A DNA stretch of 32,996 nt from an uncultured Cetobacterium sp. (GTDB lineage: Bacteria; Fusobacteriota; Fusobacteriia; Fusobacteriales; Fusobacteriaceae): positions 1-32,996 of the forward strand of contig NZ_CAMQXC010000014.1 in assembly GCF_947038635.1 (NCBI RefSeq). The letters are read 5' to 3'. This document shows, one piece after another, positions 9,717 to 27,010 of the stretch (its first letter is position 1; each line of letters opens with the position of its first letter). The position numbers were made by a program, and so were the translations under genes. A model generated the notes under the pieces. The model saw nothing but the letters and a program-made list of their open reading frames with translations. It was not told the DNA's origin and did no database searches.

Positions 9717-11201
9717 TTAGGCTTTTTCACCTACACAATTTTCTACAGTTGCTTTTTTTAGTCTTACTTTTGGTTCACTTGGTAAGCCAAATCTCGGAAT
9801 AAATCTATCTAACCCTGTTAATGTTGCTATTAAAATTGTCGATACTGCTATTATTGCTAAGAAATTAAACTTAATTATATCCATTGCACTAAATTTATAT
9901 AATGGATAAACAGCTTGAGCTATTCCTAGATAAAAACCTATATATACATGCCATGGAATTAATTGTGATCCAAATACTCCTAACGCATCGCTAAATGTTG
10001 CATTTCTAAGTCTTAATGTTTCGATATCCTCTGGAGATCCTTCAACATTTTTTTCAACTATCTCTCTTATAATAGGTCCCATAGTAACTATTTGAGCCAT
10101 CTCATCTGCTAAGCCTGCATTTCCTAATATTGATAGTACTCCATTGCAAAACATTAGTTGTCTTACATTCTTTGATATTGCAACCACTATATTTGATAAA
10201 GGTCTAAACGCATCCATTAACTTCATTATTCCACCAAATGCCGCAACCCACATCATCATTACTATTACCCATGAACCAGCACCTTCAAATCCTGAATATA
10301 ATAGATTTAAGAAAGCTCCTGTACTTTCAACTGTTCCTGCAAACATACCTAATACATATGCTGCAAATATACCTATAAATAAACATAATAATGTTGTCAT
10401 TCCTCTAAAAGCTGCAATTAAAACGAGAACCAATGGTATTATCATATAAGTTGGAACACCTGTTTTAACTTGATTTAGTAGTGTTACTGCTGATTCTCTT
10501 TTTTCAGCTAGCACTGTCCATACTTCTGCAGGTATATGTCCTATTGCTGTTGCTGCATCACCTGTTGTTGTTGGCAATCCTAATATTACTCCAGCGGCAT
10601 AAAAAGCAACTATTCCTAAAATTAAAACTAAACCTGACCAATATCCTTGGTGTCTTATTCTTTTTATTACTTCAACTTTTTGAATTCCAGAACTTACAAT
10701 TGTTGTATCTGATATAAGTCCTATGTTATCTCCAAAACATGCCCCTCCTGCGATAGCCCCTAAAGTTAAATCTATATTTCCTCCCACAATATGATTAAGC
10801 CATAAGAAGATTGGTGCACATGCTGCAAATGTTCCCCAGCTTGTTCCTGTTGCTATTGATAAAACCGATGTAACAACTATTCCTACAACTGCCACAGTTC
10901 TTCCTGTTAATCCTACATTTAAAGCTAAATTTATGATAGATGCTCCCACACCTGTTGACATAAATACTTCCGCCATAGCATATGCTACCATCAGAATAAA
11001 AAATGCAACTTGCATCTCTTTAGCATTATCTATAACTGCTTCTATAATATCATTAACTTTCTTTTTTTCAACAAATCCTGCAACTAAAGCTGCATACACT
11101 GTTGCTACTGGCGCTGCTATTAATGCGTCATATCCCATAAACATTAGCATTGCTAATATCGCAACTGGACTTAATTTTAATAGTTCTGTTATTCTGTTCA
11201 T
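9717..11201 (-). CDS. lysW: NhaC-family Na+/H+ antiporter-like transporter, probable lysine transporter
   Basis: An integral membrane protein of 494 residues with about 11-12 hydrophobic segments. Blocks such as SIATGTSWGTFAACAPIF and GGACFGDNIGLISDTT match the NhaC superfamily. On sequence alone the substrate would be called Na+/H+. The gene, however, is directly under a lysine riboswitch and is the only gene in that unit. Comparative work on lysine riboswitches (Rodionov and colleagues) proposed that such NhaC-superfamily members, named LysW, are lysine transporters, so I infer lysine uptake. The short cytoplasmic tail is basic (RLKKATVENCVGEKA). Confidence 0.85.
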   Translation of the reverse strand: MNRITELLKLSPVAILAMLMFMGYDALIAAPVATVYAALVAGFVEKKKVNDIIEAVIDNAKEMQVAFFILMVAYAMAEVFMSTGVGASIINLALNVGLTGRTVAVVGIVVTSVLSIATGTSWGTFAACAPIFLWLNHIVGGNIDLTLGAIAGGACFGDNIGLISDTTIVSSGIQKVEVIKRIRHQGYWSGLVLILGIVAFYAAGVILGLPTTTGDAATAIGHIPAEVWTVLAEKRESAVTLLNQVKTGVPTYMIIPLVLVLIAAFRGMTTLLCLFIGIFAAYVLGMFAGTVESTGAFLNLLYSGFEGAGSWVIVMMMWVAAFGGIMKLMDAFRPLSNIVVAISKNVRQLMFCNGVLSILGNAGLADEMAQIVTMGPIIREIVEKNVEGSPEDIETLRLRNATFSDALGVFGSQLIPWHVYIGFYLGIAQAVYPLYKFSAMDIIKFNFLAIIAVSTILIATLTGLDRFIPRFGLPSEPKVRLKKATVENCVGEKA

Positions 11202-11282: not shown

Positions 11283-11306
11283 CTAATCTGCAAAATATAT
11301 CACAAA

Positions 11307-11480
11307 TTTTGGATAGCACAACATCAGATTTTATCTGACGACAGTCATGTGAATATTTTTCACATGCCCAACAAAGATTTTGACATAATCTTCATTTCGG
11401 CGAATTCCCCTTTCACTCAATTTCATCGCTCTGTCCAGCTCTATTGAGTTACTCTTGTTATTCGCAACCTCTACCTAAAA
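11307..11480 (-). ncRNA. Lysine riboswitch (L-box) aptamer
   Basis: The minus strand reads the conserved L-box elements in order: AGGTAGAGGTTGCG, AAGAGTAAC, GTGAAAGGGGAA, TCGCCGAAATGAAG, GTTGGGCATGTG, ACTGTCGTCAGAT and GATGTTGTGCTATCC. The 5' TTTTAGGTAG and 3' CTATCCAAAA ends pair as P1 with one mismatch. The aptamer, its terminator and its promoter fill the 333-base gene-free gap between gpmI and the transporter. Confidence 0.95.
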
Positions 11481-11505
11481 TATTAAATTTTCGAAACTTT
11501 AAGTT

Positions 11506-18310: not shown

Positions 18311-19096
18311 TTATTTATAGCTTACAACTCTTGTATTATCTAATACTCTAAATGTAAATGTTTCTGTTATAAATAATTCTACTTCTTGATTTGTATGCCC
18401 TTGATATCCTAAAGAAAAGTCTTCTCCTAGTACAAGTTCAATATTTTCATTGTCATAAGGAACTAATAACGCTCCAGTTATATTATTTGAAACTATTATT
18501 GGCATCCCCAATATTTTTTCTAATCTTTTTGCTAATGAATCATTTAAATTTACCATATTTAAATATATAAATTTTTCAAGACCTACAACTAATGCATAAG
18601 GACCTTTACTAAACCCTGTATTTCTTAATTTTGAAACTCCATACATTAAATTTTTTATCGTTTCTTGTTCTGTTTTTCCAAAGTCTAAAGCTTGTTTTTC
18701 ATCTTTTAGTAATCCTACTATACAAGCTTCATCTAATCCAAAATATATTGCCTCCTCTTCAAATTTAGCTGCACTTTTTAAAGCTTCATCTAAATTTGTA
18801 TAATCAATATCTCTAGCTCCTCTTTCAAAATTATCCAATTCCCATCTGCTTAATTTAAAAGTTATTCTATTTTCTACAAAAGGTTGTGTTTGATAAACAC
18901 CATAACTTAAATCACCTTTTTTATGTATTGCCAATCTTCCAGTATTTACTCCACCCTTTTCTTTTCCAATAGGCCCTGTTACTTTTACAAATCTTCTAGC
19001 TGATAATTGAGTTGTCAAAACCTCTTTTGCTCTTTCCTCTATATCTTTCCAAACTTTACCACTTATTGGTGCTAACTCTTTTTTTAGAAAATCCAT
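18311..19096 (-). CDS. enc: Family 1 encapsulin nanocompartment shell protein
   Basis: HK97-fold shell protein that self-assembles into a cytoplasmic icosahedral compartment. The 261-residue length matches family 1. The N-terminus MDFLKKELAPISGKVWKDIE, the segment ELDNFERGA near residue 87 and the C-terminal half (FITETFTFRVLDNTRVV) follow the encapsulin pattern. The preceding gene, 13 bases upstream, encodes a ferritin-like cargo with an encapsulin targeting tail, which makes the call firm. The two form one operon. Confidence 0.95.
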   Translation of the reverse strand: MDFLKKELAPISGKVWKDIEERAKEVLTTQLSARRFVKVTGPIGKEKGGVNTGRLAIHKKGDLSYGVYQTQPFVENRITFKLSRWELDNFERGARDIDYTNLDEALKSAAKFEEEAIYFGLDEACIVGLLKDEKQALDFGKTEQETIKNLMYGVSKLRNTGFSKGPYALVVGLEKFIYLNMVNLNDSLAKRLEKILGMPIIVSNNITGALLVPYDNENIELVLGEDFSLGYQGHTNQEVELFITETFTFRVLDNTRVVSYK

Positions 19097-19109
19097 ACTT
19101 TTTTCCTCC

Positions 19110-19475
19110 TTATCCTTTTAATGAACCTATATTTAATGATTTTACATTCGTTACTACTTTATTCTCTTCTGAAGTCTGCTCACTTCCACCATTTCTTCCC
19201 ATTAGCTGAGCCTCTATCCCTACAATTTTTCCCTGTCTGAATATGTAATCTTCCATCTCTTTTCCAAACTCAAACTGATTTCTTCTTAACCATTCAACTA
19301 TCATAACAGCATGTTCCATCTCTTCATTTCTGTTATGAATCATAACTTCTTTAAGTTCAGGATCTACTGCCATTTCTGCTCTTTGGTTATAATCATCTAC
19401 TGCTTGTAGTTCCTCCTTTAAACTTTGTATTGCGTAGTCCAAATCTGTAGCTTTTTTACTAATTCCATCTAACAT
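19110..19475 (-). CDS. Encapsulated ferritin-like protein (EncFtn)
   Basis: A 121-residue cargo ferroxidase that oxidises Fe2+ for storage inside the encapsulin shell. A two-helix ferritin-like core (about 10-80) carries Glu22 in KEELQAVDDY, Glu52 and His55 in NRNEEMEHA, the expected ferroxidase-centre ligands, and Tyr29. It works as an annular decamer in known members. After a flexible linker (about 91-111) the C-terminal SLNIGSLKG is the targeting peptide that docks to the shell interior, with the GSL core typical of family 1 cargo. Relative to the Rhodospirillum protein as I recall it, Glu34 and Trp38 are replaced by Gln24 and Asp28. A GGAGGTG ribosome site precedes the ATG. Confidence 0.95.
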   Translation of the reverse strand: MLDGISKKATDLDYAIQSLKEELQAVDDYNQRAEMAVDPELKEVMIHNRNEEMEHAVMIVEWLRRNQFEFGKEMEDYIFRQGKIVGIEAQLMGRNGGSEQTSEENKVVTNVKSLNIGSLKG

Positions 19476-19740: not shown

Positions 19741-20331
19741 ATGATTGAAAAAGAAGATATAATTTTAGCACAAAACGGAGATGAAGAATCAATTGAAAAA
19801 ATTATCAAAGAGTATCAAGGAGCAATCTACAAAAATAATCGCTCATTTTTTCTTAAAGGTGGAGATAGTGACGATTTAATGCAAGAAGGATTTATAGGTC
19901 TTATTAAGGCTATTAAATCTTATGACGAAACTAGGAACGCGTGTTTTAGTACTTTTGCAAATCTTTGTATTAGAAGACAGATGATTACAGCTGTTAAAAA
20001 TCATAACTCTGATAAATACAAAAACCTAAACCTTGCAATGCAAGGTGAAGGTTACTCTACGCAAGAAGAAAGTATTCATTACTCGCGTCCTTCTTTAGGG
20101 TTTTATTCACCTGAAGATATTTTTTTAGGTAAAGAGTTAGTAAATCTTCTAACTGGTTTCCTCGAAGAAAATCTGAGTACTTTAGAGAAAAAAGTTTTCA
20201 CGTATCTATGCAAAGAATATACTTATGTTGAGATTGCTGATTTTTTAAATGAACCTCCAAAAAAAATAGATAATACTATTCAACGAATTAAAAAGAAAAT
20301 TTTAACTTATCTGGGTTCTTACTCAAAATGA
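19741..20331 (+). CDS. sigH: SigH-like RNA polymerase sigma-70 factor
   Basis: A 196-residue alternative sigma factor. Region 2 (about residues 10-90) includes GDSDDLMQEGFIGLIKAIKS and STFANLCIRRQMITAVK, the -10 recognition and core-binding segments. Region 4 (about 140-194) has LSTLEKKVFTYLCKEYTYVE and a helix-turn-helix. There is no region 1 or 3, and the length matches SigH/Spo0H rather than ECF factors, whose region 2 differs. Spo0H also controls competence and stationary-phase genes, so a role outside sporulation is plausible here. The leader has a G-rich site before the ATG. It is monocistronic, convergent with proS. Confidence 0.85.
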   Translation: MIEKEDIILAQNGDEESIEKIIKEYQGAIYKNNRSFFLKGGDSDDLMQEGFIGLIKAIKSYDETRNACFSTFANLCIRRQMITAVKNHNSDKYKNLNLAMQGEGYSTQEESIHYSRPSLGFYSPEDIFLGKELVNLLTGFLEENLSTLEKKVFTYLCKEYTYVEIADFLNEPPKKIDNTIQRIKKKILTYLGSYSK

Positions 20332-24330: not shown

Positions 24331-24359
24331 TTGACATTTTTTAGGTTTTAATATATCAT
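24331..24359 (+). promoter_or_regulatory. Promoter of the c-di-GMP riboswitch unit
   Basis: Perfect -35 TTGACA at 24331-24336, a 17-base spacer and -10 TATCAT at 24354-24359. The transcript would start a few bases before the aptamer. Confidence 0.78.
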
Positions 24360-24368
24360 TATTATATA

Positions 24369-24441
24369 ATATGAATCGGCAAAGTAGGGGAAATCCTATG
24401 ACGCAAAACTATAGGGTCTTTAAAATGACAGCCAGTTGCAG
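24369..24441 (+). ncRNA. Cyclic di-GMP-I (GEMM-I) riboswitch aptamer
   Basis: The conserved GEMM-I elements are present in order: CGGCAAAG, a GNRA-type hairpin (GTAGG-GGAAAT-CCTAT), GACGCAAAACTATAGGGTCT, and ATGACAGCCAGTTGCA. The 3' strand GCCAGTTGCA is also the 5' arm of the following terminator. Ligand-stabilised pairing of that strand with TGAATCGGC would compete with termination, which predicts an ON switch; that direction is inferred. Confidence 0.9.
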
Positions 24442-24489
24442 TTACATTTTGGTTAAACCAAAATATAAGTGCAACTGGCTTTTGTATTT
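24430..24489 (+). terminator. Riboswitch-controlled terminator
   Basis: GCCAGTTGCA pairs perfectly with TGCAACTGGC, with an inner ATTTTGGTT / ACCAAAAT stem, and is followed by TTTTGTATTTT. It lies between the c-di-GMP aptamer and the first DUF4402 gene. Confidence 0.88.
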
Positions 24490-24524
24490 TATAAACTTTA
24501 TGAAATTACGGGAGGGAACAAATT

Positions 24525-24962
24525 ATGAAAAAATTATTAATACTTTTATCTTTAACTACAGCTATGACAGCTTTTGGAACAACACTTCAAGGGAGTGAAG
24601 ACTCTGCTACTATGAATATCAATGCAACTGTTATTAAACCACTTACTGTTACTGTTGTTGATCACATGAATTTCGGAACTGTTATTCAAGGAAATGAGGC
24701 TACTGCTACAGGTAAATACTCAATTGAAGGACATCCAGGTGAAACAGTTTTCATCACAACCACTCTGCCTACAACGTTAACCAATAATATTACTAAATCT
24801 GGATTAGGTATTACTTTTGATACAAATATTTCTTTAAATGTTAATAAACTTGATGCAAATGGAAAATTACCTTTTGATATAACTGGTACAATTACTCCAA
24901 CTACTTCTACACCTACAGGTACTTATGAAGGTCAAATTGTAGCTAGAGTTCAATATCAATAA
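24525..24962 (+). CDS. Secreted DUF4402-like protein A
   Basis: A 145-residue exported protein. The signal peptide MKKLLILLSLTTAMTAFG is followed by a beta-rich domain resembling DUF4402: NINATVIKPLTVTVVDHMNFGTVIQGNE contains the family's pltv...FG.v..g core. It ends PTGTYEGQIVARVQYQ, a typical closing strand. DUF4402 proteins are often fimbria-like or usher-linked surface subunits, but no usher or chaperone gene is here. It lies directly downstream of a c-di-GMP riboswitch, so a role in attachment or biofilm formation is likely but inferred. GGAGGG precedes the ATG by eight bases. Confidence 0.83.
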   Translation: MKKLLILLSLTTAMTAFGTTLQGSEDSATMNINATVIKPLTVTVVDHMNFGTVIQGNEATATGKYSIEGHPGETVFITTTLPTTLTNNITKSGLGITFDTNISLNVNKLDANGKLPFDITGTITPTTSTPTGTYEGQIVARVQYQ

Positions 24963-24976
24963 TTTTAAACATTTAG

Positions 24977-25003
24977 CAACTGGGAAATCCCAGTTGTTTT
25001 TAT
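24977..25003 (+). terminator. Hairpin between the two DUF4402 genes
   Basis: CAACTGGGA and TCCCAGTTG form an arm pair, effectively a 7-bp stem with a 6-base loop, followed by TTTTTAT. It looks like a weak intrinsic terminator limiting read-through into the second gene. Its stem heptamer CAACTGG/CCAGTTG is the same as in the riboswitch terminator. Confidence 0.75.
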
Positions 25004-25015
25004 ATGGAGGGGTTT

Positions 25016-25471
25016 ATGTCATTAATATTAACTTTATTTTTATTAACTTTTAGCAATATATTTTCTTCTAATACTTCAGAAGAAAATATGAATATCAACG
25101 CCACTATTATAAAGCCTTTAAAAGTTATCCACAATGGTGATATTAATTACGGTAAAGTTATTCAAGGTTCTACTCATTCAACTAGTGGACATACTTTTAC
25201 AATATACGGAGAACCTGGACAAAAGGTTAAAATTACTCTTGATAGTAAAAATATAAATGGTAATAAAAATTCCATTGTTCTTACTCACGAAAAAAATAGT
25301 TTAAATATTTTAAATGTTTTTTTAAAAAATGAAACAAAAGATAATCCTCAAACTAAATTAAATGAAAAAGGTGAATATAAGTATTCTTTTGACACTGAAC
25401 TTACAGTTCCTAAAAATGCACAAATTGGAAACTATTCTGGAACTTTAACTATGGAAGTTAAATTTAATTAA
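25016..25471 (+). CDS. Secreted DUF4402-like protein B
   Basis: A paralogue of the preceding gene, 151 residues from ATG 25016. This start is chosen because GGAGGGG lies 4-10 bases upstream; the in-frame ATG at 25004 overlaps that ribosome site. The hydrophobic leader MSLILTLFLLTFSNIFS precedes NMNINATIIKPLKVIHNGDI and YGKVIQGS, which parallel protein A (NINAT.IKPL.V and .G.VIQG). It is more basic and Lys/Asn-rich, without the Thr-rich loops of protein A. It ends IGNYSGTLTMEVKFN. The pair probably arose by tandem duplication followed by divergence. Confidence 0.8.
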   Translation: MSLILTLFLLTFSNIFSSNTSEENMNINATIIKPLKVIHNGDINYGKVIQGSTHSTSGHTFTIYGEPGQKVKITLDSKNINGNKNSIVLTHEKNSLNILNVFLKNETKDNPQTKLNEKGEYKYSFDTELTVPKNAQIGNYSGTLTMEVKFN

Positions 25472-25490
25472 TATTCAGTTATAAAAAATA

Positions 25491-25520
25491 AAAACTGAGG
25501 AAATTACTCCTCAGTTTTTT
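25491..25520. terminator. Bidirectional terminator between DUF4402 gene B and the purine permease
   Basis: AAAACTGAGGA and TCCTCAGTTTT form an 11-bp stem around a short loop (AATTAC), with T residues after it on the plus strand and A residues before it. It serves both convergent genes. Confidence 0.85.
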
Positions 25521-26901: not shown

Positions 26902-26916
26902 AAATGCAGTTAGTTC

Positions 26917-26989
26917 TACCCATAGTGTCTTCATTTACGGTAAAGACGTAGAAACTATTGGACCATATTTCCAAAAATATATGAGTATG
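26917..26989 (-). ncRNA. Guanine-type purine riboswitch aptamer
   Basis: The minus strand has TACTCATATA, GGAAATATGG, AGTTTCTACG, TTACCGTAAATG and GACACTATGGGTA in order, the classic purine aptamer. P1 (TACTCATA / TATGGGTA) is fully paired. The specificity nucleotide equivalent to position 74 is C (ACTATG), which indicates guanine/hypoxanthine rather than adenine. Confidence 0.94.
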
Positions 26990-27010
26990 TTTTTTATTGT
27001 TTTGTATTTT

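Follow-up and report, generated by a model that had tools for sequence, protein, structure and literature searches.

A probable orphan pilin cassette behind a predicted c-di-GMP riboswitch in Cetobacterium

What do two small secreted proteins do behind a riboswitch when none of the window genes scanned around them encodes a chaperone, an usher or a sortase? The question is raised by a 32,996-nucleotide stretch of an uncultured Cetobacterium sp. (the window; all positions below refer to it unless another locus is named). An initial annotation, made from the DNA letters, had proposed a c-di-GMP-I (GEMM-I) riboswitch in front of a pair of DUF4402-like proteins, in a genome it rightly took for one of the Fusobacteriota, and had suggested a new biofilm or host-attachment module. 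We propose, with a probability of about 0.78, that the locus is an orphan pilin cassette belonging to a Cetobacterium regulon for chaperone-usher pili that c-di-GMP gates.

The features of the locus are collected in Table 1. They include the consensus promoter that had been placed ahead of the aptamer; as a class, promoter-like sites are not above chance in the window (8 found, 13.2 expected). The second gene was listed as an open reading frame at 25004-25471. The ATG at 25016 is the likelier start, because the ATG at 25004 overlaps the Shine-Dalgarno sequence and the orthologue in the genome G010 begins MSLIL. The terminator between the two genes, absent from the initial annotation, is probably an attenuator. 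Convergent on the cassette is an NCS2 xanthine/uracil-type permease gene with a purine riboswitch upstream (26903-27004, minus strand). Elsewhere the window carries a lysine riboswitch (11306-11481, minus strand) upstream of a 494 aa open reading frame at 9717-11201, an encapsulin shell (Linocin_M18) gene (18311-19475, minus strand) with a gene for an EncFtn-like ferritin cargo upstream, and, divergent from these encapsulin genes, a gene for a sigma-70-like factor (19741-20331, plus strand).

Table 1. Features of the riboswitch and pilin locus, in window positions
Feature	Position	Strand	Basis
Sigma-70-like promoter, TTGACA-17-TATCAT	24331..24359	+	11 of 12 consensus positions
c-di-GMP-I (GEMM-I) riboswitch aptamer	24368..24443	+	RF01051, 57.8 bits, full model 1-87
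Intrinsic terminator (predicted expression platform), 5' arm AGCCAGTTGCA overlapping aptamer 3' strand, TTTT after	24430..24483	+	Fold
Probable pilin 1 (DUF4402), 145 aa, signal peptide, putative N-terminal donor strand DSATMNINATVIK	24525..24962	+	Pfam, AF2, Foldseek
Intergenic intrinsic terminator between pilin 1 and pilin 2	24975..24998	+	Terminator scan; equivalent hairpin in G010
Probable pilin 2 (DUF4402), 151 aa from likely start	25016..25471	+	Pfam; G010 orthologue 80% identical
Terminator closing the cassette, common to the convergent NCS2 permease gene	25490..25519	.	Scan; same hairpin in G005 and G010

Both window proteins have a signal-peptide-like N-terminus, indicating export, and neither contains a cysteine. 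Against Pfam DUF4402 (PF14352; gathering cutoff 25.2 bits), protein 2 scores 33.8 bits and protein 1 falls just under the cutoff at 22.2 bits, which upholds the description of two secreted DUF4402-like paralogues in tandem. A profile built from 41 relatives and compared with the PDB matched CsuE (E 2.2e-4), CsuA/B and Caf1 (F1 antigen). With the AlphaFold (AF2) model of protein 1 (mean pLDDT 88.5) as query, Foldseek returned an archaic Csu pilus subunit first, followed by a FimD-tip complex and CfaB; the TM-scores against solved pilins, at about 0.4-0.6, are moderate. In the model the N-terminal segment MNINATVI is unpaired and its hydrophobic residues alternate, as has been described for the CsuA/B donor strand (PMC4654587). 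A simple donor-strand motif occurs at the N-terminus of 53 of the 76 family members, and a simple C-terminal motif (a strand ending near an aromatic residue) in 66. Exported and predicted to adopt an incomplete Ig fold like that of solved pilins, the window proteins are very probably chaperone-usher pilins, and the surface-attachment role suggested for them fits these profile and fold matches.

Where, then, is the assembly machinery? The reported absence of chaperone, usher and sortase genes holds for the window genes scanned and fails for the genome, which encodes three ushers and six PapD/CsuC-like chaperones. It also contains six GEMM-I aptamers. Two of them, on contigs C26 and C19, each head an operon encoding a chaperone, a pilin, a second chaperone, an usher and then three secreted proteins, two small and one large. 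Two others head DUF4402 genes, one gene on contig C34 and the pair on C14, the contig of the window. The fifth, on C75, is accompanied by a gene for a secreted protein of 106 aa, and just before lie genes for an EAL-domain protein and a short chaperone; synteny with the genomes G005 and G006 identifies this locus as the end of the C26 operon's continuation. The sixth, on C11, precedes the gene of a MarR-like regulator, an arrangement (L010, 8123-8610, 96 aa regulator) that is conserved in several Cetobacterium genomes and suggests a possible further action of c-di-GMP via a transcription factor. The end of C19 carries the third usher operon (L206), whose upstream part lies beyond the contig edge, and a GGDEF protein gene (L007, 4950-6398, minus strand) is divergent from the C26 operon.

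Assignment of the usher family relies on fold and on distant members. For the members scanned, neither Pfam nor NCBIfam gave an usher-family match, and the profile of the usher alignment matched nothing in the PDB. A model of medium confidence (pLDDT 69) matched FimD (Foldseek E 5.9e-24), the first 17 matches all being FimD or PapC, and distant members pass the PF00577 cutoff at the same coordinates. In the chaperone family one member scores above the PF00345 (PapD_N) cutoff, and the family profile matched CsuC in the PDB. Since the same RNA switch heads these chaperone and usher genes, one signal probably turns on the whole, presumably adhesive, pilus system, and the window pilins would use a chaperone and an usher encoded at other loci. 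A stand-alone module without assembly genes is rejected on the genome-wide chaperone and usher searches; the same genome has chaperone-usher operons under the same riboswitch class.

The association extends across the phylum. Among 98 genomes of Fusobacteriota, GEMM-I is found in 37, DUF4402 in 28 and the usher family in 40, with an usher match above Pfam's usher cutoff in only three. Every one of the 28 genomes with DUF4402 also has an usher; within the family this co-occurrence has a hypergeometric P of about 3e-8, a value that ignores relatedness and is phylogenetically confounded. The riboswitch-gene order of the window recurs: 57 of 90 DUF4402 matches lie 3' of a GEMM-I aptamer on the same strand within 6.5 kb, 31 of them within 700 nt. 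Of the 90 GEMM-I copies in the Fusobacteriaceae genera g1, g2, g4 and g5, about 66 are followed by chaperone-usher or DUF4402 genes, a count that takes in nine operons opening with an HD-GYP gene (seven with an usher match downstream, two truncated where the contig stops) and four small-gene loci that end operons. One contiguous locus in genus g2 (L207) encodes, behind GEMM-I, a chaperone, five DUF4402 pilins, a 299 aa DUF4402 protein of two domains that is tip-like, and an usher. In genus g4, which includes F. mortiferum, a repeat of GEMM-I, DUF4402 gene and chaperone gene adjoins an usher operon (L077 and L085).

These loci bear on the possibility that the window proteins stand alone, as exported proteins of the matrix or periplasm that no usher polymerises, with the riboswitch part of our account unchanged. 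No chaperone or usher gene adjoins them, the Pfam entry for DUF4402 gives no function, and our literature search, made mostly without subscription journals, found no paper on DUF4402 and nothing relevant on c-di-GMP in connection with the chaperone-usher pili of Fusobacteriota or in Cetobacterium. We nevertheless consider this explanation unlikely: it leaves aside the profile and fold matches to chaperone-usher pilins, the DUF4402 pilins encoded inside chaperone-usher operons and in the repeats beside the g4 usher operon, and the finding that no DUF4402 genome of the set is without an usher.

Many usher operons open with a gene for an HD-GYP protein with an intact HHEKW..GYP motif, and an EAL protein is present in other usher operons; c-di-GMP phosphodiesterases within the operons suggest feedback. 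One GEMM-I usher operon opens with a fusion of a solute-binding domain to an HD-GYP phosphodiesterase (L075, 969-3122, plus strand), possibly a nutrient-to-c-di-GMP input. Tandem GEMM-I aptamers about 90 nt apart were seen in three genomes (G054, C3:967476-967719; G059, C1:553405-553646; G061, C428:1259-1500); the gene that follows in G054 codes for a secreted-looking protein of 944 aa.

The gene pair of the initial annotation is not fixed; it is one state of a cassette. In six Cetobacterium genomes the interval from recG to the NCS2 permease gene or yebC contains GEMM-I and one to three DUF4402 genes. Between the window's genome and G005, the closest pair, the upstream flank is 95%, the promoter-to-leader segment 99% and the downstream flank 95% identical; at the DNA level the signal peptide is 96.5% identical and the mature pilin about 66%. 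The G005 gene combines the gene 1 leader with a body resembling that of G010 gene 3 (84% DNA identity), which is consistent with its having been shaped by recombination between leaders. High divergence, one to three copies between conserved flanks and this composite gene might all be expected if the cassette were a decaying or silent reservoir that donates to expressed pilins by recombination, an explanation made quite improbable by a window locus whose promoter, aptamer, terminator and ribosome sites are intact and whose frames are open. More tentatively, and with the odds somewhat against the full scheme, we suggest a c-di-GMP-gated pilin system in which riboswitch, leader and signal peptide stay constant at one site in the chromosome, mature pilins and copy number turn over from species to species by recombination of the repeated leaders, the orphan pilins are passed to shared ushers that this riboswitch class also controls, and phosphodiesterases of the operons close a negative feedback. 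If true, this would be a mechanism of second-messenger-timed surface variation in Fusobacteriota.

In which direction does the switch work? The hairpin at 24430-24480 is stable (-29.7 kcal/mol), and nine paired nucleotides of its 5' arm lie inside the aptamer 3' strand, the overlap on which a predicted ON logic had been based. Because the aptamer's 3' strand itself serves as the 5' arm of the terminator, the bound aptamer and the terminator should be mutually exclusive. When folding was followed along the growing transcript, an aptamer-compatible fold persisted until the 3' arm was made and then yielded to the terminator, a modelled change as expected for a co-transcriptional switch. The U-tract of this first terminator is imperfect (TTTTGTATTT). 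At related loci, changes in the aptamer strand are matched in the terminator arm (GCCAGTTGCA/TGCAACTGGC, GCCAGCTGCA/TGCAGCTGGC and GCCAGTTACA/TGTAACTGGC). Where cassette terminators are paired at 9 or 10 of 10 positions, the distal arm matches the aptamer-strand changes (T-A to C-G, G-C to A-T), in a count made without the window locus and two near-identical orthologues, whose arms were read by eye. In the window's genome, five GEMM-I copies have a terminator that starts inside the aptamer end; the remaining copy, on C75, has no clear overlapping terminator. Across Cetobacterium, an automated scan, in which a few loci are mislabelled because the hairpins called there include the aptamer itself, found a terminator 5' arm taking in at least 3 nt of the aptamer 3' strand at 36 of 58 loci and a terminator starting at the GC that holds the C92 equivalent at 16 more.

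The overlap and the matched arm changes support an ON switch, the direction that we predict in vivo from the architecture of the window leader. The class I c-di-GMP riboswitches of C. difficile, in contrast, are OFF switches (PMC11477304). Were the window riboswitch likewise OFF, or more complex, high c-di-GMP would lower expression, and the fully transcribed terminator is indeed far more stable than the aptamer. We regard this as very unlikely given a terminator arm that is itself aptamer strand, co-variation of the two arms and a window leader in which no separate anti-terminator was seen.

The aptamer was recovered by the RF01051 covariance model well above its gathering cutoff of 35 bits (E 5.7e-9 for the window), bearing out the GEMM-I call. 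Positions equivalent to G20 and C92 (Vc2 numbering), which we take to be ligand contacts, are conserved; the former, presumably the one that separates c-di-GMP from cGAMP variants, is a G within GGCAAA in the window and a G in all 124 related copies in which the motif was found (134 copies in all), never an A. The window's genome has nine GGDEF domains, so c-di-GMP is probably made there, and the aptamer is predicted to bind it. GEMM-I variants for 3',3'-cGAMP are known in Geobacter, and that the window aptamer is one of them is highly improbable, the G20 position and a genome with nine GGDEF domains and an EAL protein both disfavouring cGAMP as the ligand.

Under the preferred reading, of a c-di-GMP-gated orphan pilin cassette, the GEMM-I aptamer of the nascent leader would bind its ligand at high c-di-GMP, keep its own 3' strand and block the terminator. 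RNA polymerase would then read into pilin 1 and, past the second terminator, into pilin 2 at a lower level; at low c-di-GMP the terminator would form and the pilin genes would be silent. In the periplasm a PapD/CsuC-like chaperone would capture the incomplete Ig-fold pilins, and an usher would polymerise them via donor-strand exchange; the other GEMM-I-controlled loci, on contigs C19 and C26, would supply both chaperone and usher. Phosphodiesterases of the EAL and HD-GYP types encoded in such operons could lower c-di-GMP again.

The window aptamer is a typical member of the GEMM-I class in its full-length match and conserved ligand-contact positions; the targets here are chaperone-usher pilins and whole chaperone-usher operons. 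Among pilus systems the nearest likeness is to Csu, the archaic (sigma) pilus of Acinetobacter baumannii: the pilin profile is nearest CsuE and CsuA/B, the chaperone profile nearest CsuC, the predicted fold matches the Csu pilus first, and in a related genus a two-domain, CsuE-like pilin is encoded near the usher (L207). The archaic clade label is thus suggested by nearest matches. Unlike Csu, the system here has cysteine-less pilins in the window, an usher mostly below Pfam detection, riboswitch control, two chaperones in some operons and scattered orphan pilin cassettes. In C. difficile a c-di-GMP-II riboswitch switches on the genes of the type IV pilus operon (PMC11477304); there, too, pilus genes are turned on by a riboswitch, although both the aptamer class and the pilus type differ.

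For DUF4402, to which Pfam assigns no function, the evidence presented here very probably makes these members chaperone-usher pilins and gives a domain of unknown function a testable one. It also points to a chaperone-usher pilus system that is widespread in the Fusobacteriaceae, mostly without annotation, and that would be under direct RNA-level control by c-di-GMP in Cetobacterium and its Fusobacterium relatives, bacteria to whose ecology attachment to surfaces is important and in which little is known of the targets of c-di-GMP.
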